DNA from: Gracilibacteraceae bacterium
GTDB lineage: Bacteria > Bacillota > Desulfitobacteriia > Desulfitobacteriales > Syntrophobotulaceae
Direction: 5' to 3'
NCBI GenBank assembly: GCA_031266805.1
Contig: JAISAH010000134.1
Span: forward strand, 1 to 51,891
Length of the DNA: 51,891 nucleotides
Positions 13,501-42,998 of the stretch are shown piece by piece. How positions within the stretch are numbered: position 1 is the first letter of the stretch; each line of letters opens with the position of its first letter. A model generated the notes under the pieces. That model worked only from the letters and a program-made list of their open reading frames with translations. It ran no database searches and was not told where the DNA came from. A program made the position numbers and the translations under genes.

Positions 13501-13558
13501 CAGCGATGCAAAAACGGGTGCGACAAATTTGTGTCATTCCGGCTTCATGCTGGGCCGC

Positions 13559-13587
13559 TTGACAAAGGCGGGGGTATTTGCTAAAGT
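13559..13587 (+). promoter_or_regulatory. rex promoter
   Basis: TTGACA (13559-13564), 17-base spacer, TAAAGT (13582-13587). The arrangement and part of the flanking sequence (CCGCTTGACAA, TTTGCTA) are shared with the hydS promoter at 27504. Confidence 0.7.
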
Positions 13588-13591
13588 GTTA

Positions 13592-13609
13592 TTGATAAAA
13601 TATTATCGA
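13592..13609. promoter_or_regulatory. Rex-type operator upstream of rex
   Basis: TTGATAAAATATTATCGA is an 18-bp near-perfect palindrome of the form TTGATAA-N4-TTATCGA, close to the known clostridial Rex site TTGTTAA-N4-TTAACAA. It starts five bases after the -10 box, so bound Rex would block transcription: probable autoregulation. Confidence 0.65.
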
Positions 13610-13652
13610 TAATTTTTATCATAAGAACACCGAAAAAAGGTTGTGATCATTT

Positions 13653-14288
13653 TTGAAAGAAACGCCTATTTCCCTGCCTGCGTACAATCGCCTGACCCGA
13701 TACCTGAACTATCTGCAGCAGCTGCCGGAAGGCGGGCCCCTTAATGTTTCCGCCGCCGGCATCGCTGCGGAATTGGCGTTAAGCGACATTCAGGTGCGCA
13801 AGGATCTGGCCGCCGTCAGCCGCGGCGGGCGGCCCCGCGTCGGCTATGTCACACGGGAGCTCGTCGCCGATCTGGAACATTTTCTCGGCCGCGACAACTC
13901 CTCGGACGCGGCGCTGGTCGGAGCGGGACATCTGGGGCAGGCGCTGCTCTCTTATGAAAATTTTGCCAGTTACGGACTGAAGATCGTCGTCGCCTTTGAC
14001 AACGATCCGCGGCTCATCGGCCGGACGATCAACGGCAAAGCGGTCATGGACGCGGCAAAAATGGCGAATCTGTGCCGCCGTCTCAGCATCCGCATCGGCA
14101 TCATCACCGTGCCGTCCGCTTTTGCTCAGGGCGTCTGCGACACTCTGATCGCGGGCGGCATTCTCGCCGTCTGGAATTTTGCCCCGGTCAACCTGAAAAC
14201 ACCGGAGCGGATCGTGGTAAAAAACGAGGATATGGCCGCTTCGCTAGCTGTTTTGACCAAGCGGATGCGCCTTGATCAACCTTTATGA
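13653..14288 (+). CDS. rex: Redox-sensing transcriptional repressor Rex
   Basis: NADH/NAD+-sensing repressor that controls fermentation and hydrogenase genes. The 211 residues show the two Rex domains: an N-terminal winged helix (ALSDIQVRKDLAAVS near 42-56) that contacts DNA, and a Rossmann domain with GAGHLG at 90-95 that binds NAD(H), then a C-terminal swap helix. The start is TTG with a modest AAGG site. The stop overlaps the next gene (ATGA). Its own promoter carries a Rex-like operator, and similar operators lie before the hydS-like gene at 27.5 kb, which points to regulon membership. Confidence 0.95.
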   Translation: MKETPISLPAYNRLTRYLNYLQQLPEGGPLNVSAAGIAAELALSDIQVRKDLAAVSRGGRPRVGYVTRELVADLEHFLGRDNSSDAALVGAGHLGQALLSYENFASYGLKIVVAFDNDPRLIGRTINGKAVMDAAKMANLCRRLSIRIGIITVPSAFAQGVCDTLIAGGILAVWNFAPVNLKTPERIVVKNEDMAASLAVLTKRMRLDQPL

Positions 14289-15445
14289 ACAGTAAAACGG
14301 TCATGAATTTTTTTCAGGACTACCTCAGTCAGGAGGCGAAAACCGGCCAGAGCGTCTGCGGCGACGTCTGCGCCTGTGAACGGACGGCCGCGGGCACGTA
14401 TTTTATTCTCTGCGACGGGATCGGTTCGGGGGTTTACGCGAATATTGCCGCTATCACCTGTCTGAGCCGGATAAAAGAACTTCTGCGCCGCGGCGTGACC
14501 GCCCGCCGGACAAGCGAGACCGTCGCCGATTCCATGCATTTGGCCCGGAGGGAAGACATCCCTTTTTCCGCTTTTATCATCACGGCGATCCTGCCGGACG
14601 GGCATTTTACCGTCTACACCTATGAAGCGCCCGGCGCGGTCCTCTTGCGCGCCGCCGGGGCCGTCCTCCTGCCGCCGCGGGTCTGCGCGGCGGGGGCGGA
14701 AACTATTGGGGAAGCGGCGGGCAGGCTGCGCTTAGGCGAGGCGCTGCTGCTCTTTTCTGACGGCGTCACGCAGGCCGGCATGGGACGCGGCTGGGGGACG
14801 GGCATCGGAGCGGAGGGGGCGGCGAGTTATATCAGCCGCGTCTGTAAAAGAGGGTTCGATCCGCGGGAATTGCCGGAAAAAATCGTGGCCATGTGCCGCG
14901 GTCTTGATCAGGAGCGCTGCGAGGACGACACGACTTGCGCCCTCCTGCATTGCCGCGAGGCGCGGGAGCTGACCATGCTGACCGGCCCTCCTTCCCGGCC
15001 GGGCCTGGACCGTGACTGCGCGGCGGCTTTTTGGGCCGCGCCGGGGCAAAAAGTGATCTGCGGCTCCACCACCGCCGAGATCGTGGCGCGGGAATCCGGG
15101 CGCCGGATCGACGTGCTGAGAGCCGGCTCATCTTTTGCCAGCCCGCCGGAGTATTCCGTCGCCGGCGTGGATCTGGCGGCGGAAGGCGCCGTCACGCTGA
15201 ATCAGGTTTACAATATTATTGATGAACCGGAGGAGGCGCTGGGCGAGGATTCTGTCGTGGAACGGTTTTGCCTGATGCTGAACAGGGCGGACGTGATCCA
15301 TCTCATGATCGGCAAGGCGGTGAACGACGCTCATGAAGAGATCCTGTTCAAACAGATCGGCGTGCGGGCGCGCCAGACGGCGGTCGCTCTGATCGCGGAA
15401 AAATTGCGGGCCAAAGGGAAACTGGTGACGGAAAAATACTGGTGA
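14285..15445 (+). CDS. SpoIIE-family protein phosphatase
   Basis: 386-residue PP2C-type (SpoIIE) serine phosphatase. Metal-binding aspartates are visible in GDVCACE (Asp27), CDGIGSG (Asp44), LFSDGVTQ near 157 and DDTTCALL near 218. After the phosphatase domain comes an extra region of about 150 residues of unknown role. In many clostridial hydrogenase operons a gene of this type sits beside the sensory hydrogenase hydS and hydA. Here it follows rex with a four-base overlap, so both are made together. Its last about 57 bases have a near copy at 29301, downstream of the hydS-like gene. Confidence 0.85.
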   Translation: MNSKTVMNFFQDYLSQEAKTGQSVCGDVCACERTAAGTYFILCDGIGSGVYANIAAITCLSRIKELLRRGVTARRTSETVADSMHLARREDIPFSAFIITAILPDGHFTVYTYEAPGAVLLRAAGAVLLPPRVCAAGAETIGEAAGRLRLGEALLLFSDGVTQAGMGRGWGTGIGAEGAASYISRVCKRGFDPRELPEKIVAMCRGLDQERCEDDTTCALLHCREARELTMLTGPPSRPGLDRDCAAAFWAAPGQKVICGSTTAEIVARESGRRIDVLRAGSSFASPPEYSVAGVDLAAEGAVTLNQVYNIIDEPEEALGEDSVVERFCLMLNRADVIHLMIGKAVNDAHEEILFKQIGVRARQTAVALIAEKLRAKGKLVTEKYW

Positions 15446-15496
15446 GACGACAGGTTTAAGATTTAAGGTTTGTGAAAGATTAAATAATCACAAATA

Positions 15497-15525
15497 TTCA
15501 CAAATTATCATGGCAGTGATATACT
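15497..15525 (+). promoter_or_regulatory. Promoter of the etfBA operon
   Basis: TTCACA (15497-15502), 17-base spacer, TATACT (15520-15525). AT-rich half-sites TTTGTGAA and TCACAAATATTCACAAA surround the -35 box and might bind a Rex- or Crp-type regulator, but spacing does not match a standard site. The remaining leader up to 15683 has no gene. Confidence 0.55.
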
Positions 15526-22279: not shown

Positions 22280-25200
22280 ATGCCCGCAAAACGTCATATG
22301 CCCCTGATTTTGCTCATGCTGCTCACACTTGTGGTCAGCGGTTTTTCTTTTTCTAAAGCCGCCGCTCCCGTTTACGCGGACGACAAGACGTTTGACGCTT
22401 ATATATATATTCCCACCAGTACTACTGTGCTTTGGGGCAGTTACAATATTGAGCGCAAGCCCTTGACTGACGCAAAACTCATCGTAAAGGATTCCGCGGG
22501 GAGCGACGTCCCGCTTGAGACATGGGAAGTGACCGAAGGCTACTTAAACATAACCAATAAGCTGTCCGGCGTCACCGAAGGCGAATATGATTACGAACTT
22601 TACTATAAGCCAAAGGAAAATGAGCCGGAAATCCTGGCCAGCTATGGCCGTTTTCTTATCACTGAAAAAAATAATGAATTCAAAATTGGCACCGCCCAGA
22701 TTAAAGTTTGGAATAGCAATCAGAGCTCGGCGATACCAAACGATCAATTCGAGGCGGACTTTATCATACTGGACCAATACAGCCAGCAAATGATTCCACT
22801 GCAAGTAAAGAAAATCGGTGCTACTTATGAAGAAAACTACGTCTTGTTAAGTGGACAGACATATACGTATTCACTAGTTTCAAACTGCCTGGACTATAAC
22901 ATTTTAGAGGGCAATTTTACTACTTTTCGCGGCACAACTCATTATATAGCTGATGACCTAGCCAAAGCAGCGACAATGCGCTTCGGATTTAACACGACCA
23001 CGACTTTCCGAATCACCAAAGGCGCGGATTTCGGCGTATATAAAAAAATAAAGCATTTTACCCAGTTTTACGAATACCCGCTGGATCTTGTGCAAAGCGA
23101 CGGCGATTACGACGTCTACACAGGCAAGATTCCGCAGAACGCTCAGCTCCACTATGAGGCCAGCCTGCCGGACGCCGGCTCTTTCCCCGCCCCCCTCAAA
23201 GAGAGCCGCCTGTTCACTTTGCCGACAAGCGCCGCTGACACGACAGTGACTTTTGATCTGAGCGATTGGCAATATACAGGCTACAGCGCCGACCCCACCA
23301 GGCAGGAAGCCAATCTGTACACGAATCTCGGACCGACAGGCAGCGTCAACCTTTCGAACGGCGAGAGCTTCGACCTTGACCTCATCCGCGTCTGGCAGGC
23401 CATGTTCGGCGTGGTGGCCAATTATTTCATCGAGCCCAACTACGAGCTGACCGTCTACGGCGACAGCGTCGGCGGGCTGGAGGAGATCGGGGCCCCCGGC
23501 CGCTTGCAGACCCGGATAACCGCTGAGGGGCCCGGCGTCAGCGTCGTCAAGATCGTCTACGGCCCGCAGATTTATAAGAACGCCGGCATGTACAGCTTGG
23601 AGATTTCCGAGATGGTCTATTTCGATCCGATCATGGCGCAGAACACAGGGGTGGCGGTGATCAACGTGGACGGGGGGCCGGACTTTGAGACCGGGATCGA
23701 CGCCCGTCACGAGTTTGACACCTATTATTTCGACCGGGAGCAGACCGACCGCGCCCTCTATACCTTCACTCCGGCGCAGGGCACGAGCGTGCGCGTTCAT
23801 GACCCGCTCCACGTCTCCGAATGGGGCGAAGCCTGGACAGATTATGAAGCGGCGGAGGACGGCAGTTTCACCGTCGGCCTGAAAGAGGGGCGCAATATTG
23901 TCGAGCTGAAAAACGGCGAATCGACCCGCTATCATGTCATCGAAGGCCGCGGCCTGGAATTCGTCATTGAGAACGTAGACCGCCCGGGCGAAGTCATAGC
24001 CGTGGGCGATACGGCCCGCGTATCTTTCAAGGGTCTGCGCTCGCCCATTCAGAAGATCGGCGGCGTCTATAACCCCGGTTTTGGCGGCACCACCTGGGTG
24101 GAGTATACGAATATTGATGAAGCCACTGTGCGGAGCGCAGGCAACCAGTACGGGATCGGCTGGCAGGAGGCCAACTATTTTGACTATACCGTCACCGCTG
24201 CCAATCTCGGCGTCCTCACCGGCGGGCAGATCCATCAGGGCGGGCTCGGCAGTTCGCTTTACACCCATATCAATATCTCCCTCTCCGGCGTCGGGATCAA
24301 TATGACCGCCGGGGCCATCCCCAGCACCGGCTATTTCAGCGCGCTGCCGGATATCACGCTGATACCGCAGGTCCCGCCGGCCACGGATATCGACGTGGTC
24401 TTCGATCCGGCGGCGGAGACGAAGCTGACCGTCCGCGCCGCGAATGGCGAGACCCAGATCCCGAAAGAGGGAGAGCCGAATGTTTACAGTCTGGCTTTTG
24501 CCGAAGGCTATCGCTATATCTACGAGAAACCGGGCTATCTGACCAAGACCGGCGAGTTCGCTGTGACCGCCGAGACGGCGAGTTTCACGCTGCCGCTTTT
24601 CACCGACGCGGATAAGATCGCTCAGAGCGCCGGGACGGCCCGGGTGACGGTCGTCGGCCCGGACAGCTATCTGGCGGACGGGGCGCCGGTCAGCTATGAC
24701 GCCGTCTCCGCGCCGAATCTGATGCCCAACCGCTGGGTCGAGTACAATTACGGCGGCTACACGGTGCTGCACGCTCTGATCGACGCCCTCGGCCCGGGGA
24801 ATTTCAGCGCCGCCGCCGGGGAGCTGACGCCGCACACTCTGACCGCGCCGCCGGCTGGCGCCGTCTGGTACTGCGAAGTGAACGGGCGGGTAGTGGCGGA
24901 CTACTGGCGGACGCATGTGCATGACGGCGACGAGATCCGTTTCTACTTGGGCGCGCCCGGCCAGACTCTGGCCTGGTTCAGCCCGGCCGCGAGCGAGATC
25001 CGTCTGGGTGAGAGCGCGACCCTCACTCTGCTGGGCAAGCCGGTCGGCGCGGACGGAGACGGCGAGGCGGTCGCCGGGGCCAGAGTGCTGGTCAACAACA
25101 CGGACTACGGCCTCGTGACCGACGCCGCCGGACAAGTGGAGATCTCTCCCGCCGCGCTCGGCGCCGGTCTCCCTCTCGGCCCCAATTATCTCCGGGCCGC

Positions 25201-27397
25201 GCGGGCGGACGCGCTCACCTTCAACCGGGCGGCGATCAACGTTCTGCCGGCGCAGACGCCGCCTCAGAGTTCCGTGACTTTCCGCCTGATCGGCGCGGTG
25301 AAACACCCGTCGCCGGACGGATACGGCCCGTTCACCGAGTATCAGAACTGGATCAGGACTTTGACCTATGATTTTACCGGCGCGGAGACGACGGTCTTTG
25401 AAGTGTTCGACTGGGCTCTGGCCCAGAAGGGCCTGGACTATGTCGAGAGCATGGAAGGCTATATCTCCACCATTCAGGCCCCGGAGGCTCTCGGCAGCGG
25501 ATATCTGGAGGAAACGGATAACGGCCCGAACTCCGGCTGGATGTACACGGTAAACGGCGTCCACGGCGATAATAGCCTGCGCCAGCAAAAACTGAGCGAC
25601 GGCGACCAGATCATCTGGCATTATGTGGACGATTATATTCTGGAAACCGACTATGAGGGCAGCCCGGCCCGCTACCCGAACCGCTGGCTGGAGGCGGAGG
25701 ACGTAGACCCGGAGACTTACGGACCGCCGGCCCCCCCGGCTCTGGAAGACGGAACAGCGGTGGGGCGGACAGAGCAGCCGGCGGAAATAGTGGAGACTAA
25801 CAGCGGCGTCCCGGCTGCCGCCGTGACCGTTGACGCGCAGGCTGTGGCGGACGCGGTGACGGAAGCGCTGGAGCGGGCCGCGGCGGAAACCGAGAGCGGC
25901 GCGGACGCCGTAGCGACGGCTGTGGAGATCCGTGTGGAAATAATTGGCAATGAAGACGTGCCGGCGAACGAGGTGAAGGAAGTCTATGTCACGCTGCCGG
26001 CCGCGGCGGTGGGGATCATCACCGGGCAGGACGGCGGCGTGGACAATGTGCGGATAGCGTCCGATCTGGGCGATATCAGCCTGGACCGGGAAGCCATCCT
26101 GACAGCCGCGCGGGTCGGGGAAGATCTGAGTTTTGTCCTCGGCGGCCTGAACGCTGGGGCGGCGGCGGAGAAGGAACTGCGGCTGCCGGCGCTTGACGGC
26201 GGCGGGATTCCCCTGGTTTATGAGATCAGCCTTTACAGCGTGAGAAGCGACACTGCTAAAATAACACAGATAACAAATCTCGGCGACGGACGGGCGACGG
26301 TCTCTCTGCCCTACGTTCTGCCGTCCGGCGGAAACCCGCTTTGGGTCGCTGTCTGGTATATCCAGCCCGGCGCTCCGGCCGAGAAGCTGAATGGCGTGAC
26401 CTATGATCAGGAAAACTCAAGAGCCGTCTTTATGCCGAACCACTTTTCTTATTACGCGGTGGGCTACGATCCGGTAGTGGTTCCGGATGTTCCGAAACCT
26501 CACGCGCCTAACGGCGGCAGCGCGGTCTCAAATGTAACGCCGCCGGTCACGCCGGCTGACCCCGCCGCGCCCATCACGGTCAGCCGGGCCAGTCTCAGCT
26601 ATATCAGCGGCGCGGATCGGGTCCTCACCTCCGTCGCCATCTCCCGTCAGGGCTGGGAGAGCGCCGAGACGGTAATCCTCGCCCCGGGCGGCCAGAATAA
26701 TCTGATCGACGCCCTGGCCGTGGCCCCGCTGGCCGGGCAGGAGGACGCGCCGATACTGCTCAGTACAGGTAGTCTTGACCCGGCGGTGATCGCGGAGATC
26801 CAGCGGCTGGGCGCGAAGAAAGTCTATGCCGTCGGCGCGTTGAGCGGGGCGGTGATTGAAGCGCTGGAGGCGGCGCTGCCCGGTCTCGCGGTTGAGACTT
26901 TGCGCGGGGCGAGCCGGTTTGAGACGGCGGCCCTGATCGGGGCGAAACTGAGCGAGCCGCAGGGCACGTTTGTCGTCGGCTATAACGCCGTGGCGGACGC
27001 TGTAAGCGCCGCCTCCTTCGCCGCGGCCCACGGTTATCTGATCCAAATTGCTGATCCGGATGGCACGGTCAGCGTGGCCGCGGGTACGCCGGCCACGGGC
27101 GCGCCGGTCTATATTCTGGGCGGCCCAGCCCTCGTGCGTGACATTCCCGGGGCGACGCGGCTCTACGGGGCGACGCGCTACGAGACGAACAAGGCCATCC
27201 GCGACGCCCTGCCTTTTGAGTACGCGAATATCTATACCGCGGACGGCGGCACTTTGGTCGACGCCCTGACCGGTTCGGCTCTCGCCGCCAGAAGCGGCGC
27301 CGCCATAGTTCTCACCCCGGGTAACGACCCCGCGGGCACGGACTTCGGAGGCATCACGGCGGAAACCAAGGTTTACGCTTTCGGCGCCGCGAAGTAA
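22280..27397 (+). CDS. Giant wall-anchored surface protein with two DUF4430 domains and CWB2 repeats
   Basis: 1705-residue secreted protein. A signal peptide (LILLMLLTLVVSGFSFSKAAAPVYA) is followed by about 780 residues of beta-rich, Ig-like sequence I cannot classify. A first DUF4430-like domain spans about 816-892, and a second, better one spans about 997-1120 with ETDNGPNSGWMYTVNG and LSDGDQIIWHYV. A ZU5-like beta region follows (about 1170-1390), then a proline linker and three cell-wall-binding type 2 repeats (about 1432-1705: SGADRVLTSVAISRQGW, GASRFETAALIGAKL, GATRYETNKAIRDAL). CWB2 repeats tether proteins to wall polymers in Clostridia. A corrinoid-binding role is inferred from DUF4430 and the riboswitch upstream. 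The C-terminal 600 residues have a close paralogue at 41.2-43.0 kb. Confidence 0.85.
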   Translation: MPAKRHMPLILLMLLTLVVSGFSFSKAAAPVYADDKTFDAYIYIPTSTTVLWGSYNIERKPLTDAKLIVKDSAGSDVPLETWEVTEGYLNITNKLSGVTEGEYDYELYYKPKENEPEILASYGRFLITEKNNEFKIGTAQIKVWNSNQSSAIPNDQFEADFIILDQYSQQMIPLQVKKIGATYEENYVLLSGQTYTYSLVSNCLDYNILEGNFTTFRGTTHYIADDLAKAATMRFGFNTTTTFRITKGADFGVYKKIKHFTQFYEYPLDLVQSDGDYDVYTGKIPQNAQLHYEASLPDAGSFPAPLKESRLFTLPTSAADTTVTFDLSDWQYTGYSADPTRQEANLYTNLGPTGSVNLSNGESFDLDLIRVWQAMFGVVANYFIEPNYELTVYGDSVGGLEEIGAPGRLQTRITAEGPGVSVVKIVYGPQIYKNAGMYSLEISEMVYFDPIMAQNTGVAVINVDGGPDFETGIDARHEFDTYYFDREQTDRALYTFTPAQGTSVRVHDPLHVSEWGEAWTDYEAAEDGSFTVGLKEGRNIVELKNGESTRYHVIEGRGLEFVIENVDRPGEVIAVGDTARVSFKGLRSPIQKIGGVYNPGFGGTTWVEYTNIDEATVRSAGNQYGIGWQEANYFDYTVTAANLGVLTGGQIHQGGLGSSLYTHINISLSGVGINMTAGAIPSTGYFSALPDITLIPQVPPATDIDVVFDPAAETKLTVRAANGETQIPKEGEPNVYSLAFAEGYRYIYEKPGYLTKTGEFAVTAETASFTLPLFTDADKIAQSAGTARVTVVGPDSYLADGAPVSYDAVSAPNLMPNRWVEYNYGGYTVLHALIDALGPGNFSAAAGELTPHTLTAPPAGAVWYCEVNGRVVADYWRTHVHDGDEIRFYLGAPGQTLAWFSPAASEIRLGESATLTLLGKPVGADGDGEAVAGARVLVNNTDYGLVTDAAGQVEISPAALGAGLPLGPNYLRAARADALTFNRAAINVLPAQTPPQSSVTFRLIGAVKHPSPDGYGPFTEYQNWIRTLTYDFTGAETTVFEVFDWALAQKGLDYVESMEGYISTIQAPEALGSGYLEETDNGPNSGWMYTVNGVHGDNSLRQQKLSDGDQIIWHYVDDYILETDYEGSPARYPNRWLEAEDVDPETYGPPAPPALEDGTAVGRTEQPAEIVETNSGVPAAAVTVDAQAVADAVTEALERAAAETESGADAVATAVEIRVEIIGNEDVPANEVKEVYVTLPAAAVGIITGQDGGVDNVRIASDLGDISLDREAILTAARVGEDLSFVLGGLNAGAAAEKELRLPALDGGGIPLVYEISLYSVRSDTAKITQITNLGDGRATVSLPYVLPSGGNPLWVAVWYIQPGAPAEKLNGVTYDQENSRAVFMPNHFSYYAVGYDPVVVPDVPKPHAPNGGSAVSNVTPPVTPADPAAPITVSRASLSYISGADRVLTSVAISRQGWESAETVILAPGGQNNLIDALAVAPLAGQEDAPILLSTGSLDPAVIAEIQRLGAKKVYAVGALSGAVIEALEAALPGLAVETLRGASRFETAALIGAKLSEPQGTFVVGYNAVADAVSAASFAAAHGYLIQIADPDGTVSVAAGTPATGAPVYILGGPALVRDIPGATRLYGATRYETNKAIRDALPFEYANIYTADGGTLVDALTGSALAARSGAAIVLTPGNDPAGTDFGGITAETKVYAFGAAK
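26566..27390 (+). repeat. CWB2-coding direct repeat, copy 1
   Basis: About 820 bp coding for the CWB2 region are nearly identical to 42151-42975, including runs of more than 100 identical bases. Same orientation, 15.6 kb apart. Confidence 0.85.
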
Positions 27398-27461: not shown

Positions 27462-27503
27462 CTTTCAGGAATTCGCGCCTTTTTTCGGATTCTATTGGAC
27501 CGC

Positions 27504-27532
27504 TTGACAAGGACTGGAATGTTTGCTAGAAT
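27504..27532 (+). promoter_or_regulatory. hydS-like gene promoter
   Basis: TTGACA (27504-27509), 17-base spacer, TAGAAT (27527-27532). Shares architecture and flanks with the rex promoter (CGCTTGACAA, TTTGCTA). Confidence 0.75.
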
Positions 27533-27536
27533 AATA

Positions 27537-27568
27537 TTGATAAAATATTATTGATAAATTTTTATCAA
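27537..27568. promoter_or_regulatory. Two overlapping Rex-type operators
   Basis: TTGATAAAATATTATTGA (27537-27554) and the perfect palindrome TTGATAAATTTTTATCAA (27551-27568) share four bases. Both fit TTGATAA-N4-TTATCAA and lie just after the -10 box. Rex bound here would repress the hydrogen-sensor gene at low NADH. Confidence 0.7.
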
Positions 27569-27622
27569 TAATAATCCAATCCGGAGCTTCACTGAGGGCG
27601 CGAACGACAGGAGGGGAGTTTC

Positions 27623-30185
<2,563 letters not shown>

Positions 30186-30193
<8 letters not shown>

Positions 30194-30524
30194 TTACAGC
30201 AGACCTTGCCAAAATCCCAATTACACCGTTGCGAGCATACGCCGCCTGCAAATCAATAATGTCGTCAAACCTTTTGCAGCGTTTAAACGTTTCTGCGTCC
30301 AGCAGAGCATATATTAAAGGCTCTGCCATGAAACAGTATTTTTTCTCATATGCCCGAAGTCCCAAAACTTCCAAATCATTCATTGTTATTTCGCAGGAAC
30401 CAACGGACAATAAAAATTTTTTTAATGCTTCGTTCCTATGTTGATCCCCGGCTTGAACCAGAGCTTTCCTGGCCAGCGCGGAACGGCGGCCGGCATTGTC
30501 TAAAAATTCTTTTGTGATTATCAT
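30186..30524 (-). CDS. Small partner of the nucleotidyltransferase-like gene, unknown
   Basis: About 112 residues beginning MIITKEFLDNAGRRSALARK. Mostly helical, no recognised domain. The ATG at 30524 is preferred because a GAGGG site stands 11 bases before it; a GTG four codons earlier overlaps that site. It overlaps the next gene by eight bases, which suggests co-translation as in toxin-antitoxin pairs. The antitoxin or co-factor role is inference from size and pairing. Low GC content marks both genes as acquired. Confidence 0.45.
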
Positions 30525-30611
30525 AAATAGACGCACCCTCTTTTGTCACGGTTTCCTAGACGTGGATTCGTCAGGCTGCCGCCTCTCTCCTGCTTCTCAA
30601 AGCCGCCGTCA

Positions 30612-30689: not shown

Positions 30690-32882
30690 GTGAATAAAAT
30701 CGCTGTTTACGGTAAAGGCGGCATCGGAAAATCCACGGTCAGCGCCAACTTGTCCGCGGCTCTGGCCCAGGCGGGCGTCCGCGTACTCCAGATCGGCTGC
30801 GACCCCAAACACGATTCCACCCGCTTGCTCACGCATGGGCGGCGGATCACGACGGTGCTGGATTACACGCGCGTGACCGGACACGCGGACCGCCGGCTGG
30901 AGGACGTGCTTTTTCCGGGATACGCGGGCGTGGGCTGCGTGGAGGCGGGCGGCCCGAAACCGGGCGTCGGCTGCGCGGGCAGGGGTATCATCACCGCCTT
31001 TGAGCTGCTGGAGCGGTTTCACGCCGAGGATGATTACGACGCCGTGATTTACGACGTGCTGGGCGACGTGGTCTGCGGCGGTTTTGCCGTCCCGATCCGG
31101 CGGGAATACGCGAATTTGATACTCATAGTCACCTCCGGCGAATTCATGGCCCTGTACGCGGCCAACAACATTCTGCGCGGGATACGGAATTACGACGGCG
31201 AAAAACGGCGCGTGGCGGGCATCGTTTTCAACCGGCGCGATATCGCCGGCGAGGACGGACGCGTCGCCCGTTTTGCCGAAGCCGCCGGACTCCCGGTTTG
31301 CGCGGTCGTACCCCGAAGCGGGGTCTTCGCTCGCTGCGAGGCGGAAAACAGGACGGTGGTCGAAGCGGGCTATGAATTGGCTGGAATTTTCAGGGATTTA
31401 GCGCGGGCGCTGACGGAAGGAATCAGCCTTTACGAAGCCGCGCCCCTGACGGACGACGACTTGGAGCACGCCGTCTTTGGCCCGGACCGGCCCGCCGCGC
31501 CGGAACCGGCCGCCGCGCTCCCTCCCGTCCGGAGACCCGCCGGGCCGGCCGCTGAGTCGACGCGCGCCGCCGCCGCTGAAGAATTGGTATCCGTCAATAT
31601 CTTATACGACGATCCCTTGCACGGCTGCGCTTTCAATGGCGCGGTCGGGACGGGCGTCCACCTGACGGACGCGGTGATCCTCGCCCACTCGCCGCAAAGC
31701 TGCGCCTATATCTCCTATCAGACGATCAGTTCGGCGGGCAGACGCGGCCTGTTCGAGCGCGGCGCCCTTTTGCCGAACTCCGTGTCGCCCAATCTGGAGT
31801 GCAGTTTCATGGATGAAAACGACGTTATTTTCGGCGGCGCCGACAAGCTGGAGGCCAAAGTGCTGGAAATAAAGAAAAAGCGCCCCCGGGCGATCGTCGT
31901 CGTCACCTCCTGCCCCTCCGGCATCATCGGCGACGACGTCAGCCGCGTCCTGCGCCACGCCGAGCCGGATCTGCCCATCATCGCGGTCAGGGCCGACGGC
32001 AATCTCAGCGGCGATTATTTGCAGGGGATGCTGGAAATGTATGTATCCTTGGCGCGCGAGATCATAAAGCGGGACATCGCGCCTATGCCGGACACGGTCA
32101 ACATAGTTTTTGAAAAAGTGGCGGCCAAAAGCACCGGCCCCAATTTCAAAATCGTGGAAGAATTTCTGCACCGGCTCGGTCTTCGGGTGAACTGCCGTTT
32201 TTTATGCGAAACGACGTTTGACCGGTTGCGGGATTTCCTCGCCGCGCCGCTCAATCTGCTGGCCAGCGACGATTATACGGGCAGGCTGCTTCGGCGTTTT
32301 TTCACGGACGAATACGGCTGCGTTTTTTTGGACGGCGGTTTCCCCGTCGGTTTTGACGAGACCAAAGAGTGGCTGCTAAAAGTCGCGGATTTTTTCGGCC
32401 GGCGCGGCGCGGCGGAGTGTCTGATCCGGGAGCAGGAAAGCGGTTACCGCCGGCGAGTGGAGGCGCTGCGCCCGGCGCTGCGCGGGCGTAAGCTGATGAT
32501 CGTCACCTTCAACCATAACGTGGACTGGATACTCAGAGTGGCGCTGGACGCCGGCATGGAGATCGTGAAGCTCGGCATACTGCGCTTCTCGCAGGACGCC
32601 GGGTTCGTGACCCGGCTCGGCGCGCCGCTGAACGTCGAGGAAAATTACGACGACGCGGGGCGCGGGGCCGACACGCTGAAATATCGGCCGGATGTGCTGC
32701 TGACCAATTACAACTCCGCGGACGAGCCGGCGGGCGTTCTGGCGGACACGATCCCCATGTGCCCCGACGCCGGTTTTTATTCCGGGCTGAACATGGTCAG
32801 CCGCTGGGCCGCTTTGCTGGAAAAAAATTTGCGCGGGGAGTGGATGGACGATAAAAAATTCGTTGACAAATATTACGCCTGA
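30690..32882 (+). CDS. Nitrogenase-like NifH-NifD fusion protein
   Basis: 730 residues joining two proteins normally separate. Residues 1 to about 260 are a NifH/BchL-type ATPase: P-loop GKGGIGKST at 8-16, and both [4Fe-4S] cysteines, Cys95 (GVGCAGRG) and Cys129 (DVVCGG). A Pro/Ala linker (about 265-300) leads to a NifD-like domain with P-cluster-type cysteines Cys313, Cys338 and Cys408, spaced much as in NifD (62, 88, 154). The FeMo-cofactor His442 region is replaced by [12 protein letters not shown], so normal dinitrogen reduction is not expected. No nifEN, nifB or ABC transporter is nearby. It is likely an uncharacterised group IV-type reductase acting on an unknown substrate. GTG start with GAAAGAAGTGG. 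Confidence 0.85.
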
Positions 32883-34140
32883 CAGCCTTTCGGGAATCAT
32901 TTTCGCGCTGGAGGGCGTCGCGCGCGGGGTGGTGCTGCTCAACGGCCCCACGGGATGCAAGTTTTACCACAGCGCGATCTCCGGCAATCAAATGGTCAGG
33001 CAAGGCGATTTCGACCCGCTGCGTTTCCCCGGCATATGGGGTTTCGGTCAGCCGCGGGTGCCCTGCACCTATCTGGCCGGCCGCGATTATGTATACGGCA
33101 GCCGCGACAAGCTGGCGGAAGCGCTGCCTTGGCTGCAGGGCCACGCGAGAGACGGCCTGATCTGCGTCGTGAACTCGCCGGGCGCCGCGCTCATCGGCGA
33201 CGATCTGCAGGGCATCGTGCAAGAGGTCTTGCCGGATACGCCCTGTATCGCCATCGAGACGCCGGGTTTTTCGGAAAACATCTTCGCCGGCTATGACAGC
33301 GCCGCTCAGGCCCTTTTCCGCCAGCTCGACATCCCCCCGCAGCCGGTGCGGCCCGCTTCGGTCAATCTGCTGGGGCTGTCTATTTTTAACAGAAATTTCC
33401 AGGGAGACTTGGCCGAGACGACGCGGCTGCTGGATCTTTGCGGCGTCAGGACGAACTGCGCTCTTTTCGCCGGCTCGGATCTCGGCGCCATCCGGGCCAT
33501 ACAGAGCGCGGCGCTGAATATAGCGCTCTATCCCGAATCCGGGCTGACCGCCGCCCGTCTGCTGGAGGAAAAATACGGCACGCCTTATATCGTCTGCGAC
33601 GGCCCGCCTGTCGGTTTCGCGGCGACCGAAGCCTTGATGGCGGCCGTATGCGCCAAGCTGGGGACCGATATCTCCGCTTTCATGGAAGAAAGCGGCCGGG
33701 CCCGCGCCCGCGCCTATACGCATATCTCCCGCGTCCACACGCTCACCGGCCTGCCGAAAGGCGCGAAATTCGCGCTGGAAGGGACCTATTCCGAGCTTTA
33801 CGCCTACACCAAATTCCTCACGGGCTATTTTGGCATGATCCCGGACGGGGCAGCGGTATTTTGCCCGGAGCGTGACGAGTACAAGGAAAAATACCTGGCC
33901 CTGCTCGACTCCCTGGGCGCATCCGCCGCTCTGAGCCGCGGCCTGACGGAAACGGACGCGGAGCTGATATTCGCCAGCGGCGGGAGCATAGCGGCCCTGA
34001 AGCTGCGCAAACGTGAATTCACCGGCGTGGAGATCTCGCTCCCCACCCTCGGTTACATCGACGTGCTGCCCAAAGCGAATTTCGGCCTGACCGGCGCTCT
34101 GCTGCTAACGGAACAGGTGTTAAACGGCTTGCTGTTTTGA
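32863..34140 (+). CDS. Divergent NifD/NifK-like nitrogenase component 1 subunit
   Basis: 425-residue nitrogenase component 1-like protein, partner of the fusion upstream and overlapping it by 20 bases (TTG start). It opens abruptly at [20 protein letters not shown], so the first P-cluster cysteine region of NifK is missing or reads Ser. Cys32 in [10 protein letters not shown] matches the second ligand. The third ligand site reads [12 protein letters not shown], with no cysteine. A P-cluster would thus be bound mainly by the partner subunit, or be a simple [4Fe-4S] cluster as in BchNB and CfbD-type enzymes. Function unknown. It is followed directly by the promoter of the second riboswitch unit. 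Confidence 0.8.
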
Positions 34141-36382: not shown

Positions 36383-37138
36383 ATGATAATAAAGCGTCTC
36401 AGCGGCAGGAGGGGCGCCGCCCTTTTGCTCATATTTGCTATGCTCTTGTCGCTCTTGCCGGTATTCAGCGGCCCGGCGCGGGCGGCGGAATTTACAGACG
36501 GGACTTTCACCGTTAACGACGCCGGGGAGATCACGGTCTACGCCGGTCTGGGGGGCGCGGTGACAATCCCGGGTACAGTGGACGGCGTAACAGTTAAAAG
36601 TATTAACATAGCAAGTAAACCGTTCGTTGGAAAGACAGAGATCACAAAAGTTGTTTTTCCCGCGCAGTTTGAATCTATTCCCAGCGGCACATCGGAATCG
36701 ACCGGCGCTTTTTCCAATTGTACCAATTTGACGGAAATTGAGTTTATGAACACGGACACAACGATTGGCAATAATGCTTTCGCGAACTGCACAAGCCTAG
36801 AAAGCGTTGATTTGCCGGAGAACTTAATGGCCATAGGCGGTAACGCCTTTTTTGCCTGTCACGCCTTGGAAAGCATTAAATGGCCTGTGAACTTGGAATC
36901 CCTGGGAACTGCCGCTTTCTTGAATTGTACAAGTCTGAAAAGTATTGTTCTGCCCAACAGCGTAAAAACCTTGGGAGGTAGTGTTTTCGCGCACTGTACA
37001 GGTCTGGAAGAAGTGATTTTGCCCGCGGGCTTAACGAGTGCGGGCACGGGCGTCTTTATGGGCTGTGCTCTGGAAAGCATTGACTTGCCGAACGGCTTGG
37101 AGACATTGGATGATAATTTTTTTCCAAAATTGCACTAA
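36383..37138 (+). CDS. BspA-type leucine-rich-repeat surface protein, N-terminal fragment before a frameshift
   Basis: About 251 residues: a signal peptide (GAALLLIFAMLLSLLPVFSGPARA) and then BspA-type LRR_5 repeats, each close to AFxNCTxLExVxLPxxLxxIG. The frame breaks at a T7 run (37117-37123): reading ends FFPKLH, but with six T it would continue FFQNCTNLTDVQLPANLQ, a perfect next repeat, into the frame ending at 42998. So this and the next feature are one gene of about 2204 residues. BspA-type repeats mediate surface adhesion in anaerobes. ATG start with AAGGAG. Confidence 0.8.
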   Translation: MIIKRLSGRRGAALLLIFAMLLSLLPVFSGPARAAEFTDGTFTVNDAGEITVYAGLGGAVTIPGTVDGVTVKSINIASKPFVGKTEITKVVFPAQFESIPSGTSESTGAFSNCTNLTEIEFMNTDTTIGNNAFANCTSLESVDLPENLMAIGGNAFFACHALESIKWPVNLESLGTAAFLNCTSLKSIVLPNSVKTLGGSVFAHCTGLEEVILPAGLTSAGTGVFMGCALESIDLPNGLETLDDNFFPKLH

Positions 37139-40100
37139 TTTAACTGATGTCCAATTGCCGGCGAATCTGCAAACAATAGGCATGTTTGCTTTTTCGGGCT
37201 GTACGAATTTAGAAACTATAGATCTGCCGCTTAACCTGACGACTATTAACAATGCTGCTTTTTCGGGATGTACGAAACTAGAAAGCATAGTCTTGCCGCC
37301 GAATCTGACGACTATACAAAACACTATTTTTGATGACACCGGTTTGAGTTCCGTGAATTGGGAGGACTGGCCGGCCGGACTGACGACGGCGGGAGGCTTT
37401 GGGAACGCCCCCATACCTGCCGAAGCCATAAACGGGATATTGCAAAAAGAGACTGTGACTGCCATAGGTGCTAACGCCTTTAGAGGCAACACCACGCTGG
37501 AGAAGCTCACCATCCCGGCAAACATCACATCTATAGGAAATTCAGCGTTTAGGGAAAGTAACATACAGAGTTTAACGGTATTATCGCCTAAAATTACAAC
37601 TACCACCGCTGCGTTTAACAGCTGCGCTCAGCTGACAAGCGTCGATATTTACTCGGCTGATGCTACAATAGCCGCCTCGACGTTTGCGAACTGTTCTAAG
37701 CTGACGAGCGTATCGATTCCAGGCTGGCAGGGCACGGTTGCCGGCAATACGTTTAACGGCTGTTCGGCTTTGGAAAATATCCTCCTGCCCGAAGGCGTTA
37801 AGGAAATTGGCACATCGCCTTTTGCCGGCACAAAAATAAAAGAATTAGTTTTCCCCTCGACCTTAAAAACTTTCGGCAACAATGTCATTAACAACAGCGG
37901 CAGCGTGGAAACCGTCGTCATTTTGGCCGAAGATTTTACGACGGCGGCCGGCGTGTCCGCTAATCTGGGCGCTAGCGTTTTCACAATCGCCGCCGGGCAG
38001 GCGCCTGTGGACATATACGCCTTACCCGGCACGGTCGCCTGGAACAAACTCCAGGCGAACACGACCGCGGCGACCAAGCATAAGATCAAATCCCTCGCTC
38101 CCGCAGTCCGGGCGACGATCCAGCAGCCGGACGGGACGCTGCTGTACGCGAACCCGGCCTTGAGGGCGCCTTATGATAACGCGGGCGCGGAGGACGGCGA
38201 GACGGTCGAGAGCTTCTATCTCGCCACCGCGCTGGACGCTTGGATCGCCGCGGTCGCGGATGGCGACCTCGGCAATGATATCACGCCGCCCGCGGCTTTC
38301 GCCCTGAACGGCGTGAAGCACGATTTCGGCGAAGCGGGCGCTTTTTCCCTCATTGAGGGGGACGAGCTGCACTTTTTCTCGGAAACAAGCCGGTTCATCT
38401 GGTTCGAGCGCGAGGACGCGCTGATCAACGAGATGTACGCCGCTCCGGGCCTCAACTACACAGTGACCCTGTGGGACGAGAACGGGTCGGTCGAGGATAC
38501 GCCGGTCTACGCGGCGAAATTCGCCGATATGGCCGATTACGCCGCGCGTTTTAGCACGGGGACTGTGTGGTCGCCTGTCGGCCAAAGCTCCCTGCCGGAC
38601 GCCGGCGGCCGGATTACGCTTAATTTTCCGGAGAACGGGGTATATCTCCTGACGGCCTACGACCCTAACGGCACGGGCCGCGTCGCTTACAACTTCCTCA
38701 CCGTCACAGTTTATGCCCCCGATAACAAACTCATCGCCGGCGCTCCCGTGGGCGAGCCTGAGCTGGATACGGGCACGGAACTCTCGTCCGGCTATCAGGC
38801 CGGAGATTTTGTCCAGATCGGCGACGGAGGGGCGCAGCTGGGCGCCGGCTTTGACCCTGACCACTTGAAATACACTCTCTACGTCAATGCCGAAACACAG
38901 AAACTGACTTTGCCGCTGGCGCGCTACTCGCTTGATTATCAGGGCAGCCTGACCCTCACCGCCGCGCTGGACGGCCAGACGGTTTTCGGCCCCGAGGCCG
39001 CGGACGGCGAGGGGCGTTGGGAGGGCCTTGGCCTCGACCTGAGCGCGGTGGGCGCCAGCGCCAAGCTCCTGCTGACGGCTTCATGCGAGGAAGCGGGAGA
39101 GACTTTTGAGCGCGTTTATGAGATCACCGTCACGCGCGACGCCAACATCGCCTACGCCGGGATACGCCATCTGGAGGGCGCTCTCGGTCTGGGCATCGGC
39201 CAGAGCGCGACGCTGTACGACGTTTTTGCCCGCGGCGCGGACTCTTATACTTTCTATATCCATCCCGGACAGACCGAAGCGGTGCTGGATGTGACCGTCG
39301 ACGGCGGCACGATCCTGTTTGCCGGCGGCGTGCAGCAAACAGAGACCGCCGCTCCAAACGTCTTCCGCGTGACTTTGGATTGCGAGAACGTCAATACCAC
39401 GCACACGCTGCGAACCTATCGCGGTGATACTAATACTACCGCAGAATATACCATAAAATTCCTGCCCCGTTCTTCGCGCGCCGGCGTGTTCACCCCTGAC
39501 CGCGTATATGACTACCGCGCCGCCGAAGGCCAGTTCGCCGGCCCGCTGTCCTACGCCCTCTGGGCTCTCGTCGCCCAGACCCACTATTATAAGTTCGTCT
39601 CGCTGGGGGGATTCGGCGGTTACGCCACCTACTATTACGACGATCCGATAGTCAACGACCCGCGCAACCCCTACGGCGTGGATTTCATCGTCTACGGCAA
39701 CGCCTTTGAGGGCGGTACGGCCGGCGAACCGGCCGGAGCGCAGGTCTCCTATGACGGCGAAACCTGGTACGATCTGGCCGGGCAGCGGCATTATGAACTC
39801 AACACCCGCTATGTACAGAACGTGCCGCTCTTGGACGGCGGGACGACGGAGAGCTTGCTGCTCTATAAGACAGGCGATTCCGGCAACCGCGATAAGACCA
39901 CCTGGGGCTACGCCGACGTGGCCAACAGCTCGGAGGTACTCTACGCCGAAAAACTCTGGTCGGTGAGAGCCACGCCATATAACCCTTACGGCGAGAACGC
40001 CGGCAAACCCTATATTACCATGCGCTATGACCCCTTTCCAACTGTGGTGTACGAATATCCGGGCGGCAACGTCGGCGATATGTTCGACCTGAGCTGGGCG

Positions 40101-42998
40101 GTGGACAAAGAAGGCCGGCCCGTCGAACTACCGGACGGCATCCGCTATATCCGCCTGCAGAACGTCATTGACGTGAAAAACCCAAGCACTGGCGAGGTCT
40201 CCCCGGAGATCGGGACGATCACCCGCGTGAACCCCGCGAGCGTCAGTTCCGCGGCGGTGGGTCTGACGGCCGCCCCGACCGCGCTGACCGTCAACGGCAT
40301 GAGTTTTGACGATTTTACCGGCGAAGTCATAACCAACAACGGCCAGACCACCTATTATGACCTCGACCTGAAAAAACTCGGCTCCAGCGTCGAAGTCGTC
40401 GTTAAAGGCGCCGAGGACGACAATATCTTCATCAATATGGAAGGCTACTACGGCGGCGAGGCCAAGTACACCGGCCTGCTGGACGAAAACTCCAGCCGCG
40501 TCGTCCGCGTCGTCGTCCAAAACGGTGAAGCGGAGCCGCGCATCTATGTTATCAACTGCGTAAACGGCGGCGACCCGGCGGCTAACGCCGATATCGACTC
40601 CATTTTGCTCGCGCCCGCCGAGGGCGACCCCAAGCTGCCGTTGGGCGACAGCGGCGCGTTTACGGCCTCCGTCGCTTCCAATGTGGAGCGCGTGACGCTT
40701 CAGGTCAGGGCGCTCAATCCCCAGGCCCGGATCGAGCTGCAGGCGGGCGGCGGCGAATATGCCCCCGTCAGTCACGATACCCAGACCGATTTTCTGGATC
40801 TGGCCGTAGGGGAGAACCGTTTTAACGTCAAAATCACCTCCGTAAACGGCGATGTTATCCAGACCTATCCGGTGGTGATCACCAGAGCCGAGACGCGCCC
40901 GGCCGATGAGATCACCGTGCGGTTCGCCCTGCGCGGCGACGATAAGCACGGGGAAGAAGGCGCGCACAATGCAAAATATTGGATCGGAACGGAAACAGTG
41001 TATGAAAAAGCGGTCGTTCCGGCGGAATCCACCGCCAAGTATCTGACCGATATGACGCTCATCAACCATGATTTACGCTTTGTGACCGTTGAAGGATTGT
41101 ATATCAGCCAAATTCAGATCCCCGGCAGCGACCCGGCCGAATATCTGGGCGAAAGGGATAACGGGCCTCAGTCCGGCTGGATGTACCGAGTCAACGGCGA
41201 ACTGGCCCCGGTCGGTTACGCTGACCTGATTCTACAAGACAGCGATATGGTGCTGTGGTTTTACTCGGACGACGGGGAGCTGGAAAAGGAGTATGAAGCG
41301 CCTCCCGCACCGCCGGCCGCCAATGTCGTCGTTACAGCCCCCGCCGGGGATGTGGAGATAATTGAAGATGAAACAACCGGCGCAGTCGCCGCCGCCGTCA
41401 CCGCGGACACGGCAGTTGTTGAAAGCGCGGTAGCCGACGCTCTCAATCAGGCGAACGCGGCGCGTGAAGACGGGGAAGAAAACGTCGTTACGACGGTGGA
41501 ACTGACAGTAGATGAATTTGAACAACAAGTGGACGCGGTCTACGTCGCCCTGCCGGCAGCGGCGGTCACGGCCCTGCTGGAAGTGGACGAGGTAACGCTT
41601 TTCACCCCGGTGGGTGAGATCAGTTTGGACCGGAAAGCTCTTGAAACCGCCGCCCGGGACGAGGAAACTCTGAATTTTGTCCTCGGCGGCCTGAACGAGG
41701 ACGCGGCGGCGGCGGAAGGTCTGCGGCTGCCGGAGACTGACAAGGCCCCGCGGGTCTATGAAATCAGGCTTTACAGCGTGGGAAGCGATACGGATGAAAC
41801 TATAATCACAAATCTTGGCGCCGGGCGGGCGAGACTCTCTCTGCCCTACGATCTGCCGTCTGGCGGGAATCAGGATTGGGTCGCCGTCTGGCATGTTCAA
41901 TCCGGCGCCGAAGCCGAAAAGCTGGACAAAGTGAGAAACCGGGTGGCCTATGCCAACTCCAGAGTCACCTTTACGCCAGACCATTTTTCTTATTACGCGG
42001 TCGGCTATGACCCGGTAACGGAGGTCGAGCCGCCTGAGCAGACTGATCCGGAGGATCCGCCTCCACCGCCCAAGCGGCCTATACCGAACGGCGGCAGCGG
42101 CCCGGTCTCGAATGTAACGCCGCCGACAGCCGTCCCGGTTGACCCCGCCGCGCCTGTCACGGTCAGCCGAGCCACCCTCTCTTATATCAGCGGCGCGGAC
42201 CGGGTCCTCACCTCCGTCGCCATATCCCGTCAGGGCTGGGAGAGCGCCGATACGGTGATCCTTGCCCCGGGTGGACAGAATAATTTGATCGACGCCCTGG
42301 CCGTAGCCCCGCTGGCCGGGCAGGAGGACGCGCCGATCTTACTCAGCACCGGCGGGCTTGACCCGGCGGTGGTCGCGGAGATCCAGCGCCTCGGCGCGAA
42401 GAAAGTCTATGCCGTCGGCGCTCTGAGCCAGGCGGTGATCGAGGCGCTACGGGCGGCGCTGCCCGGTCTCACGGTTGAGACTTTGCGCGGGGCGAGCCGG
42501 TTTGAGACGGCGGCCCTGATCGGGGCGAAACTGACCGAGCCGCAGGGCACGTTTGTCGTCGGCTATAACGCCGTGGCGGACGCTGTAAGCGCCGCCTCCT
42601 TCGCCGCTGCCCACGGTTATCTGATCCAGATCGCCGATCCCAGCGGCAATGTCACTGTGGCCGCGGGCACGCCGGCTACGGGCGCTCCGGTCTATATTCT
42701 GGGCGGCCCGGCCTTAGTGCGTGACATCTCCGGGGCGACGCGGCTCTACGGGGCGACGCGCTACGAGACGAACAAGGCCATCCGCGACGCTTTGCCCTTT
42801 GAGTACGCGAATATCTACACCGCGGACGGCGGCACCTTGGTCGACGCCCTGACCGGCTCGGCTCTCGCCGCCAAGAGCGGCGCCGCCATCGTCCTCACCC
42901 CGGGGAACGACCCGGCGGGCGTGGACTTCGGAGGCATCACCGCTGAGACTAAAGTTTACGCTTTTGGGGGTAACCGCGCGAGCGCACAGAGTGATTGA
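37038..42998 (+). CDS. Giant surface protein: LRR continuation, DUF4430 and CWB2 repeats (after frameshift)
   Basis: Protein-like translation starts at about 37117. LRR repeats continue to about 37950. Ig-like domains follow, then a domain with SLGGFGGYATYYYDDPIVND and VDFIVYGNAFEGG (about 39590-39960), a style I associate with surface proteins of anaerobes, possibly corrinoid-related. A DUF4430 domain lies at about 40905-41275 (YLGERDNGPQSGWMYRVNG, SDMVLWFYSDDG), then the ZU5-like region, proline linker and three CWB2 repeats (42157-42970). The last 600 residues are paralogous to the 22280-27397 protein. The end differs: the frame runs into an inverted repeat and stops at FGGNRASAQSD. Predicted wall-anchored, corrinoid-linked by riboswitch 2 and DUF4430. 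Confidence 0.82.
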   Translation: MRARASLWAVLWKALTCRTAWRHWMIIFFQNCTNLTDVQLPANLQTIGMFAFSGCTNLETIDLPLNLTTINNAAFSGCTKLESIVLPPNLTTIQNTIFDDTGLSSVNWEDWPAGLTTAGGFGNAPIPAEAINGILQKETVTAIGANAFRGNTTLEKLTIPANITSIGNSAFRESNIQSLTVLSPKITTTTAAFNSCAQLTSVDIYSADATIAASTFANCSKLTSVSIPGWQGTVAGNTFNGCSALENILLPEGVKEIGTSPFAGTKIKELVFPSTLKTFGNNVINNSGSVETVVILAEDFTTAAGVSANLGASVFTIAAGQAPVDIYALPGTVAWNKLQANTTAATKHKIKSLAPAVRATIQQPDGTLLYANPALRAPYDNAGAEDGETVESFYLATALDAWIAAVADGDLGNDITPPAAFALNGVKHDFGEAGAFSLIEGDELHFFSETSRFIWFEREDALINEMYAAPGLNYTVTLWDENGSVEDTPVYAAKFADMADYAARFSTGTVWSPVGQSSLPDAGGRITLNFPENGVYLLTAYDPNGTGRVAYNFLTVTVYAPDNKLIAGAPVGEPELDTGTELSSGYQAGDFVQIGDGGAQLGAGFDPDHLKYTLYVNAETQKLTLPLARYSLDYQGSLTLTAALDGQTVFGPEAADGEGRWEGLGLDLSAVGASAKLLLTASCEEAGETFERVYEITVTRDANIAYAGIRHLEGALGLGIGQSATLYDVFARGADSYTFYIHPGQTEAVLDVTVDGGTILFAGGVQQTETAAPNVFRVTLDCENVNTTHTLRTYRGDTNTTAEYTIKFLPRSSRAGVFTPDRVYDYRAAEGQFAGPLSYALWALVAQTHYYKFVSLGGFGGYATYYYDDPIVNDPRNPYGVDFIVYGNAFEGGTAGEPAGAQVSYDGETWYDLAGQRHYELNTRYVQNVPLLDGGTTESLLLYKTGDSGNRDKTTWGYADVANSSEVLYAEKLWSVRATPYNPYGENAGKPYITMRYDPFPTVVYEYPGGNVGDMFDLSWAVDKEGRPVELPDGIRYIRLQNVIDVKNPSTGEVSPEIGTITRVNPASVSSAAVGLTAAPTALTVNGMSFDDFTGEVITNNGQTTYYDLDLKKLGSSVEVVVKGAEDDNIFINMEGYYGGEAKYTGLLDENSSRVVRVVVQNGEAEPRIYVINCVNGGDPAANADIDSILLAPAEGDPKLPLGDSGAFTASVASNVERVTLQVRALNPQARIELQAGGGEYAPVSHDTQTDFLDLAVGENRFNVKITSVNGDVIQTYPVVITRAETRPADEITVRFALRGDDKHGEEGAHNAKYWIGTETVYEKAVVPAESTAKYLTDMTLINHDLRFVTVEGLYISQIQIPGSDPAEYLGERDNGPQSGWMYRVNGELAPVGYADLILQDSDMVLWFYSDDGELEKEYEAPPAPPAANVVVTAPAGDVEIIEDETTGAVAAAVTADTAVVESAVADALNQANAAREDGEENVVTTVELTVDEFEQQVDAVYVALPAAAVTALLEVDEVTLFTPVGEISLDRKALETAARDEETLNFVLGGLNEDAAAAEGLRLPETDKAPRVYEIRLYSVGSDTDETIITNLGAGRARLSLPYDLPSGGNQDWVAVWHVQSGAEAEKLDKVRNRVAYANSRVTFTPDHFSYYAVGYDPVTEVEPPEQTDPEDPPPPPKRPIPNGGSGPVSNVTPPTAVPVDPAAPVTVSRATLSYISGADRVLTSVAISRQGWESADTVILAPGGQNNLIDALAVAPLAGQEDAPILLSTGGLDPAVVAEIQRLGAKKVYAVGALSQAVIEALRAALPGLTVETLRGASRFETAALIGAKLTEPQGTFVVGYNAVADAVSAASFAAAHGYLIQIADPSGNVTVAAGTPATGAPVYILGGPALVRDISGATRLYGATRYETNKAIRDALPFEYANIYTADGGTLVDALTGSALAAKSGAAIVLTPGNDPAGVDFGGITAETKVYAFGGNRASAQSD
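42151..42975 (+). repeat. CWB2-coding direct repeat, copy 2
   Basis: Nearly identical to 26566-27390 and in the same orientation. Homologous recombination between the copies would remove 15.6 kb carrying hydS, the nitrogenase-like genes and riboswitch 2. Confidence 0.85.

Follow-up and report, generated by a model that had tools for sequence, protein, structure and literature searches.

Many anaerobes possess at least two Rex proteins, and the second one is often located on hydrogenase or ethanol operons. To our knowledge, no operator is known for such second Rex proteins. Canonical Rex operators follow TTGTGAAnnnnTTCACAA in Streptomyces and Bacillus and TTGTTAAnnnnTTAACAA in clostridia, with TTGTGAA or TTGTTAA as half-sites, and the proteins carry xRG or xQG in the wing and an alanine before the QVRKD motif. 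In the mode of action described in PMC8457756, NAD-bound Rex binds DNA and NADH releases it. The same source reports that the second Rex of Clostridium thermocellum, Rex_1799 (Cthe_0422), shares 36 and 34% identity with Rex proteins that have been characterised. The region Cthe_0422-0432, which includes genes for Rex, AdhE, a phosphotransferase, an Fe-S domain protein, SpoIIE, a 24-kDa NADH dehydrogenase and an Fe-hydrogenase, is described as the most down-regulated region under furfural (PMC3848806), and in a tolerant mutant, maintained expression of the second rex and adhE (Cthe_0422-3) is reported to be linked to a mutation in the non-coding DNA preceding these genes (PMC3804516, PMC4236516). 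In Caldithrix abyssi, rex heads an operon for a bifurcating-type hydrogenase and has a Rex site upstream, as here, but that site is the canonical cTGTGAATCAATTCACAt (PMC5317091). Finally, hydS of Ruminococcus albus and hfsABCD of Thermoanaerobacterium involve a sensor-type [FeFe]-hydrogenase with PAS domains that is tied to Rex and to ethanol/H2 control (PMC5707799).

The window, that is, the whole analysed stretch of 51,891 nucleotides, contains a putative sensor of the latter type. Unlike the arrangements in R. albus and Thermoanaerobacterium, its sensor, phosphatase and rex genes lie apart, and of the partner hydA just a fragment is left. The features concerned are collected in Table 1. They are probably two fragments of one NADH/H2-responsive operon, namely rex-spoIIE and hydS followed by a spoIIE scar and a hydA scar, with the same promoter and the same tiled operator array, which is most likely bound by the divergent Rex encoded next to it.

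Table 1. Genes, promoters, predicted operators and gene remnants of the rex and hydS loci (positions in the window).
Feature	Position	Strand	Basis
rex promoter: TTGACA 13559-13564, 17-bp spacer, TAAAGT 13582-13587	13559-13587	+	sequence; homologous to hydS promoter
predicted operator array at the rex promoter: weak site 13578-13595 (over the -10 box), followed by a good one at 13592-13609 (TTGATAAAATATTATCGA) and a degenerate one from 13606	13578-13622	+	
rex of the divergent clade, starting with TTG; wing GGRPRVGY, isoleucine before QVRKD	13653-14288	+	Pfam, NCBIfam, structure match, tree
HydS-operon phosphatase of SpoIIE type; its start overlaps the rex stop	14285-15445	+	PF07228; 41% to the copy in the G009 operon
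phosphatase gene 3' end, homologous to the scar after hydS	15390-15447	+	alignment
hydS promoter: TTGACA 27504-27509, 17-bp spacer, TAGAAT 27527-27532	27504-27532	+	sequence; homologous to rex promoter
predicted operator array at the hydS promoter: weak site at 27523, sites 27537-27554 and 27551-27568 (perfect palindrome TTGATAAATTTTTATCAA)	27523-27568	+	
hydS: putative H2-sensing [FeFe]-hydrogenase with H-cluster, 4Fe-4S and PAS domains	27623-29302	+	PF02906, PF04060, PF13188; 50% to G009 HydS
frameshifted scar at the hydS stop: terminal portion of another spoIIE copy	29300-29358	+	alignment
scar: hydA fragment (QFTSCCPGW motif region); nearest HydA of NADH-dependent bifurcating type	29377-29484	+	PF02906 positions 46-81

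The identification of the regulator gene as rex in the original prediction is borne out. Its product matches PF06971 and PF02629, both above the Pfam cut-offs, and scores 257.7 bits against NCBIfam NF003994, where the cut-off is 130. The closest solved structures are Rex proteins, the best being 3wg9 (E 6e-35), and the conserved GxGxLG motif and the acidic strand-end residues are kept. The genome holds one other Rex, on contig C114, with 39% identity. In a tree built with a quick method and SH-aLRT support, 82 rows of a divergent clade and 42 rows of other Rex proteins separate at 99. The window Rex lies within a 42-row subset of this clade, also at 99 and together with L092, L103 and L104, on a long end branch of 0.94. 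The clade resembles canonical Rex in domain layout, in operator length and symmetry, in its predicted autoregulation, and in having its likely targets in NADH and H2 metabolism. In place of the canonical half-sites it has TCGATAW, tiled every 14 bp, and its wing reads [KR]P[KR], with isoleucine or valine before QVRKD. Position 61 of the wing is proline in 97% of the 82 clade members, against arginine in all 28 canonical proteins with xRG (100%). Isoleucine before QVRKD also reaches 97% in the clade, as opposed to the canonical alanine, but this figure is inflated because IQVRKDL[QA] was one of the two search patterns with which clade loci were fetched.

The promoters of rex and hydS had been predicted to share their -35/-10 layout and to be duplicates of one another. 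The layout is indeed the same, with identical -35 boxes and equal spacers, and alignment shows the two to be homologous. Local alignment of 13540-13627 with 27486-27574 gives a score of 80, whereas the best of 1000 shuffled pairs reaches 33; with the operator excluded the score is 31, and the best of 2000 shuffles reaches 23. In a BLAST search of the whole genome with 13540-13660, the best non-self match is 27496-27567 (82%, E 7.4e-13).

The predicted Rex-type palindromes after the -10 box are present, although not in the expected form. Their half-site is TYGATAW and not the canonical TTGTGAA or TTGTTAA, and the sites overlap the -10 box. At both promoters, the palindromes are overlapping 18-bp sites placed 14 bp apart, so that window rex has on its own promoter the 14-bp tiled operators that are typical of the divergent clade. 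The rex array is poor, with one good site. The sites at 13578 and 13592 match at 11/14 and 13/14 positions and are weaker than in most clade members, while that at 13606 is weak and looks 1 bp short. The best match upstream of window rex is 14/14 for TYGATAA and 11/14 for each canonical form, and this region does not carry a canonical operator of either the Streptomyces/Bacillus or the clostridial type. A canonical Rex operator was rejected as improbable for the window sites, since upstream of clade genes TCGATAW half-sites are common and canonical forms are rare. An FNR-type box (TTGAT-N4-ATCAA) is ruled out from the sequence, as the spacing here is N8. Elsewhere in the genome, a perfect lone TTGATAATAATTTATCAA at C89:25565 is probably due to chance, having neither array nor promoter context, and a perfect canonical site at C5:2768 presumably belongs to the other Rex. 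Within the window, TTGTGAA/TTCACAA-type repeats with a spacing not canonical for Rex occur at 15460-15525, within the etfBA leader.

The motif was derived from the window and its g6 relatives and then tested upstream of rex genes chosen by Rex protein similarity; the named loci of this first set are the best 80 of 309 relatives. Matches of at least 12/14 occur upstream of 51 of 82 clade rex genes, against 2 of 246 shuffled sequences. In the same 82 regions and at the same threshold, canonical half-sites are found in 7 (TTGTTAA) and 3 (TTGTGAA). When genes located by tblastn are sorted by Rex type, counting 20 rows that fail the wing regular expression as other, the TCGATAW motif lies upstream of 50/82 clade genes and 0/42 other Rex genes; Rex paralogues with an LQG wing have the operator in 0/10 cases. 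The control Rex genes all come from one order and a canonical site was found upstream of none of them, so that these comparisons lack a positive control for the canonical operator. In the first set, some 40% of members have no site upstream of rex, and in some of these loci rex sits inside an operon. At the other extreme, the relative Flexilinea flocculi (L136) has three sites that each match at 14/14. At four clade loci (L097, L102, L106, L145), a near-canonical TTGTTAA-type site (13/14) is also found upstream of rex, which hints at cross-control by an ordinary Rex.

From 108 sites at 45 loci, the positional consensus is TCGATAW-NNNN-WTATCGA, an 18-bp palindrome of 7-4-7 layout. Among 104 site-pair distances of up to 60 bp, 66 are 14 bp, 27 are 28 bp, 4 are 42 bp and 7 have other values. 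With a period of 14 bp, neighbouring sites overlap by 4 bp and have TCGA in common. A search of 1.36 Mb of loci for strict arrays returned 53, of which 45 lie directly before rex and 6 before genes leading into rex; one precedes window hydS, and one (L127) is unexplained. The six arrays leading into rex precede iron-dependent alcohol dehydrogenase genes (L094, L098, L099, L103), an nfn-like pair (L101) and a 901-aa frame (L134). The motif counts, the pair distances and the strict-array search took in L108 and L118, which apparently correspond to G017 and G021; the later analyses other than the strict-array search used L072 and L074 instead. Of 44 arrays, 26 are overlapped by a -35/-10 pair, as opposed to 16% of shuffled sequences; in 11 of these 26 the -10 box starts at phase 4 mod 14. 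The arrays are thus placed where a repressor should sit.

A second set comprised 29 non-own loci from 398 genomes. Under a loose clade definition, sites were present in 7/22 clade loci versus 0/7 others, which is not significant (Fisher p 0.15). A post hoc split gave 5/5 for isoleucine with [KR]P[KR], 2/4 for valine with [KR]P[KR], 0/2 for alanine with [KR]P[KR] and 0/18 for all others; the operator consequently characterises a smaller group of proteins than the loosely defined family. The third valine case, L195, belongs to G151, whose array precedes hydC. As a free-standing genome-wide signature, the two-site array (up to 3 mismatches) was rejected, since the real and the reversed pattern each occur in 12/398 genomes. 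Besides the window's own genome, 11 genomes have the two-site pattern, in 3 of them (G151, G381, G422) beside a clade rex or hydCB. Taken together, there appears to be a divergent Rex branch, spread over several phyla, with TCGATAWnnnnWTATCGA operators tiled every 14 bp. In the literature searched, no description of TCGATAW operators or of 14-bp tiling for Rex was met, which does not establish their absence from print.

These data also bear on three other readings. Ordinary Rex autoregulation, with slightly degenerate canonical operators and a tiling without meaning, would suit a protein that Pfam and NCBIfam class as Rex, operators of canonical length and 7-4-7 symmetry, and window sites with the canonical T at position 2. 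It is nevertheless improbable, given that upstream of clade genes the canonical half-sites are rare and TCGATAW is common, as the 108-site consensus confirms, that the period is strict, and that the residues of the recognition region differ. Just as little probability is assigned to another regulator binding the array while rex merely belongs to the regulated operon. A LysR-family gene does adjoin either the array or rex itself in L094, L101, L103, L178 (G151) and L173 (G217), but the gene common to most of the array loci listed is rex and not LysR, and across phyla the arrays go with this clade of Rex and are missing from other Rex types.

The last of these readings concerns the promoters, which might have converged on the same operator and on a sigma-70 core common in this organism. 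A third promoter with the same -35 to -10 sequence exists at C147:15165-15194 (L041, about 9966), upstream of an AAA-ATPase gene and free of operators; its presence makes the likeness of the promoter cores alone weaker evidence than it first appeared. The homology between the rex and hydS regions also ends in the 5' leader. Convergence is still an unlikely account, because only three promoters of this type occur in the genome (up to 3 mismatches), and the likeness between rex and hydS reaches 5' of the -35 box and continues across the array without losing register. Both loci moreover have the spoIIE 3' end in common, and their genes form one operon in relatives. On sequence grounds, the preferred interpretation of the twin promoters is as relics of a single redox/H2 operon.

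The remains downstream of the two genes point the same way. The 3' ends of the phosphatase, one intact and one in the scar, are identical in 53/60 columns and align with a score of 82, the best of 1000 shuffles reaching 30. The predicted similarity of these ends stands, with the qualification that after hydS only the 3' end remains, joined to a 36-position hydA fragment. This fragment is 83% identical to hydA of L144 over 35 aa. No second intact SpoIIE-type phosphatase of the kind following rex and no intact hydA of bifurcating type were found in the genome, which has further hydrogenases on contigs C87, C113 and C30. The stronger statement that the genome has lost its bifurcating hydrogenase was softened in view of a NuoE-like gene and a partial NuoF match on C68. 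A shared GATCAnnCTTTATGA, equalled in 8/2000 shuffles, is only suggestive of an origin of the 3' end of window rex from the end of hydS. Directly after the hydA scar, at 29594-30536 on the minus strand, lie two small frames without a Pfam match, which may mark an operon-ending insertion.

Comparison of operon order in related genomes shows relatives in which rex, hydS, spoIIE and hydA are kept in one operon. In G009, a genome of the same family, the order is rex-hydC-hydB-hydA-hydS-spoIIE, headed by a Rex 50% identical to the window Rex and accompanied by a divergent hcp gene. The operon start is the same in G017 and G021, and among the best 80 of 309 loci the G009 order recurs, for example, in L123, L124, L135, L140, L143, L144, L147, L153, L158 and L159. 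An alternative order, rex-(small 2Fe-2S protein)-hydS-spoIIE-hydA, is found in L092, and in L103 without the small gene. The hydS and spoIIE genes of the window are nearest to those of L140, L104 and L073, where the G009-type operon is intact in L140 and L073 and probably in L104.

Splitting of one ancestral operon, or its duplication followed by loss, is accordingly a well-supported interpretation, and to that extent the original prediction can be retained. Its proposed ancestral order, rex-hydS-phosphatase-hydA, agrees less well with the comparison, as the nearest relatives have rex-hydC-hydB-hydA-hydS-spoIIE and the claimed order occurs in other relatives, L092 and L103. It keeps some plausibility because the hydA scar comes after the spoIIE scar, a position that would fit either tandem duplication or an operon that ended in hydA. 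The simplest history would be one in which an operon running from rex to hydS-spoIIE was split or duplicated, after which one copy lost its middle, leaving rex-spoIIE, and the other lost rex, spoIIE and most of hydA.

The mechanism proposed for this system starts from results at the level of the sequence, namely the homology of the loci, the gene families, the array and its period, the association with the clade and the overlap with promoters. At low NADH, Rex dimers would bind cooperatively all along the array, covering the -10 box and the transcription start, and keep rex, spoIIE and hydS off. Rising NADH would release Rex and open both rex-spoIIE and hydS. In relatives, the same switch would also drive hydCBA, alcohol dehydrogenase or nfn-like genes. 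The window HydS contains PF02906 and PAS_8, and its CTACP, GPCxxKK and C-x3-C motifs align with those of HydS from G009; it is a putative H2 sensor and signalling protein. By analogy with R. albus, it may report H2 and act together with the phosphatase; for R. albus itself, the H2 signal step that has been proposed involves a kinase (PMC5707799).

The 14-bp step implies, by arithmetic and not from a structure, that adjacent dimers are about 120 degrees apart, three per four helical turns. A more tentative generalization, and one rather doubtful at present, is that the widespread Rex branch acts as a ladder repressor. Dimers stacked every 14 bp would make the response of hydrogenase and alcohol dehydrogenase operons to NADH cooperative, with a steep threshold, and the KPK/RPR wing, which resembles an AT-hook core, would alter specificity and so insulate the branch from canonical Rex in the same cell.

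The divergent clade probably includes Rex_1799 of C. thermocellum. This prediction draws on published gene order and identity, the order at Cthe_0422 resembling that of L094, L102 and L106. The furfural data on Cthe_0422-0432 fit the proposed switch. With the predicted operator and the geometry of the array, the regulon of the divergent branch becomes directly testable, including in the biofuel organism C. thermocellum, and the twin promoters of the window genome find an explanation as the probable remains of one redox operon.

Other features of the window include a 730-aa frame at 30690-32882 with NifH (PF00142) followed by nitrogenase component 1 (PF00148), which looks like a NifH-NifD-like fusion belonging to a nitrogenase-like enzyme. 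A second PF00148 gene follows it at 32863-34140. Very large proteins of cell-surface type are encoded at 22280-27397 and 37038-42998, the latter with leucine-rich and cell-wall-binding repeats.
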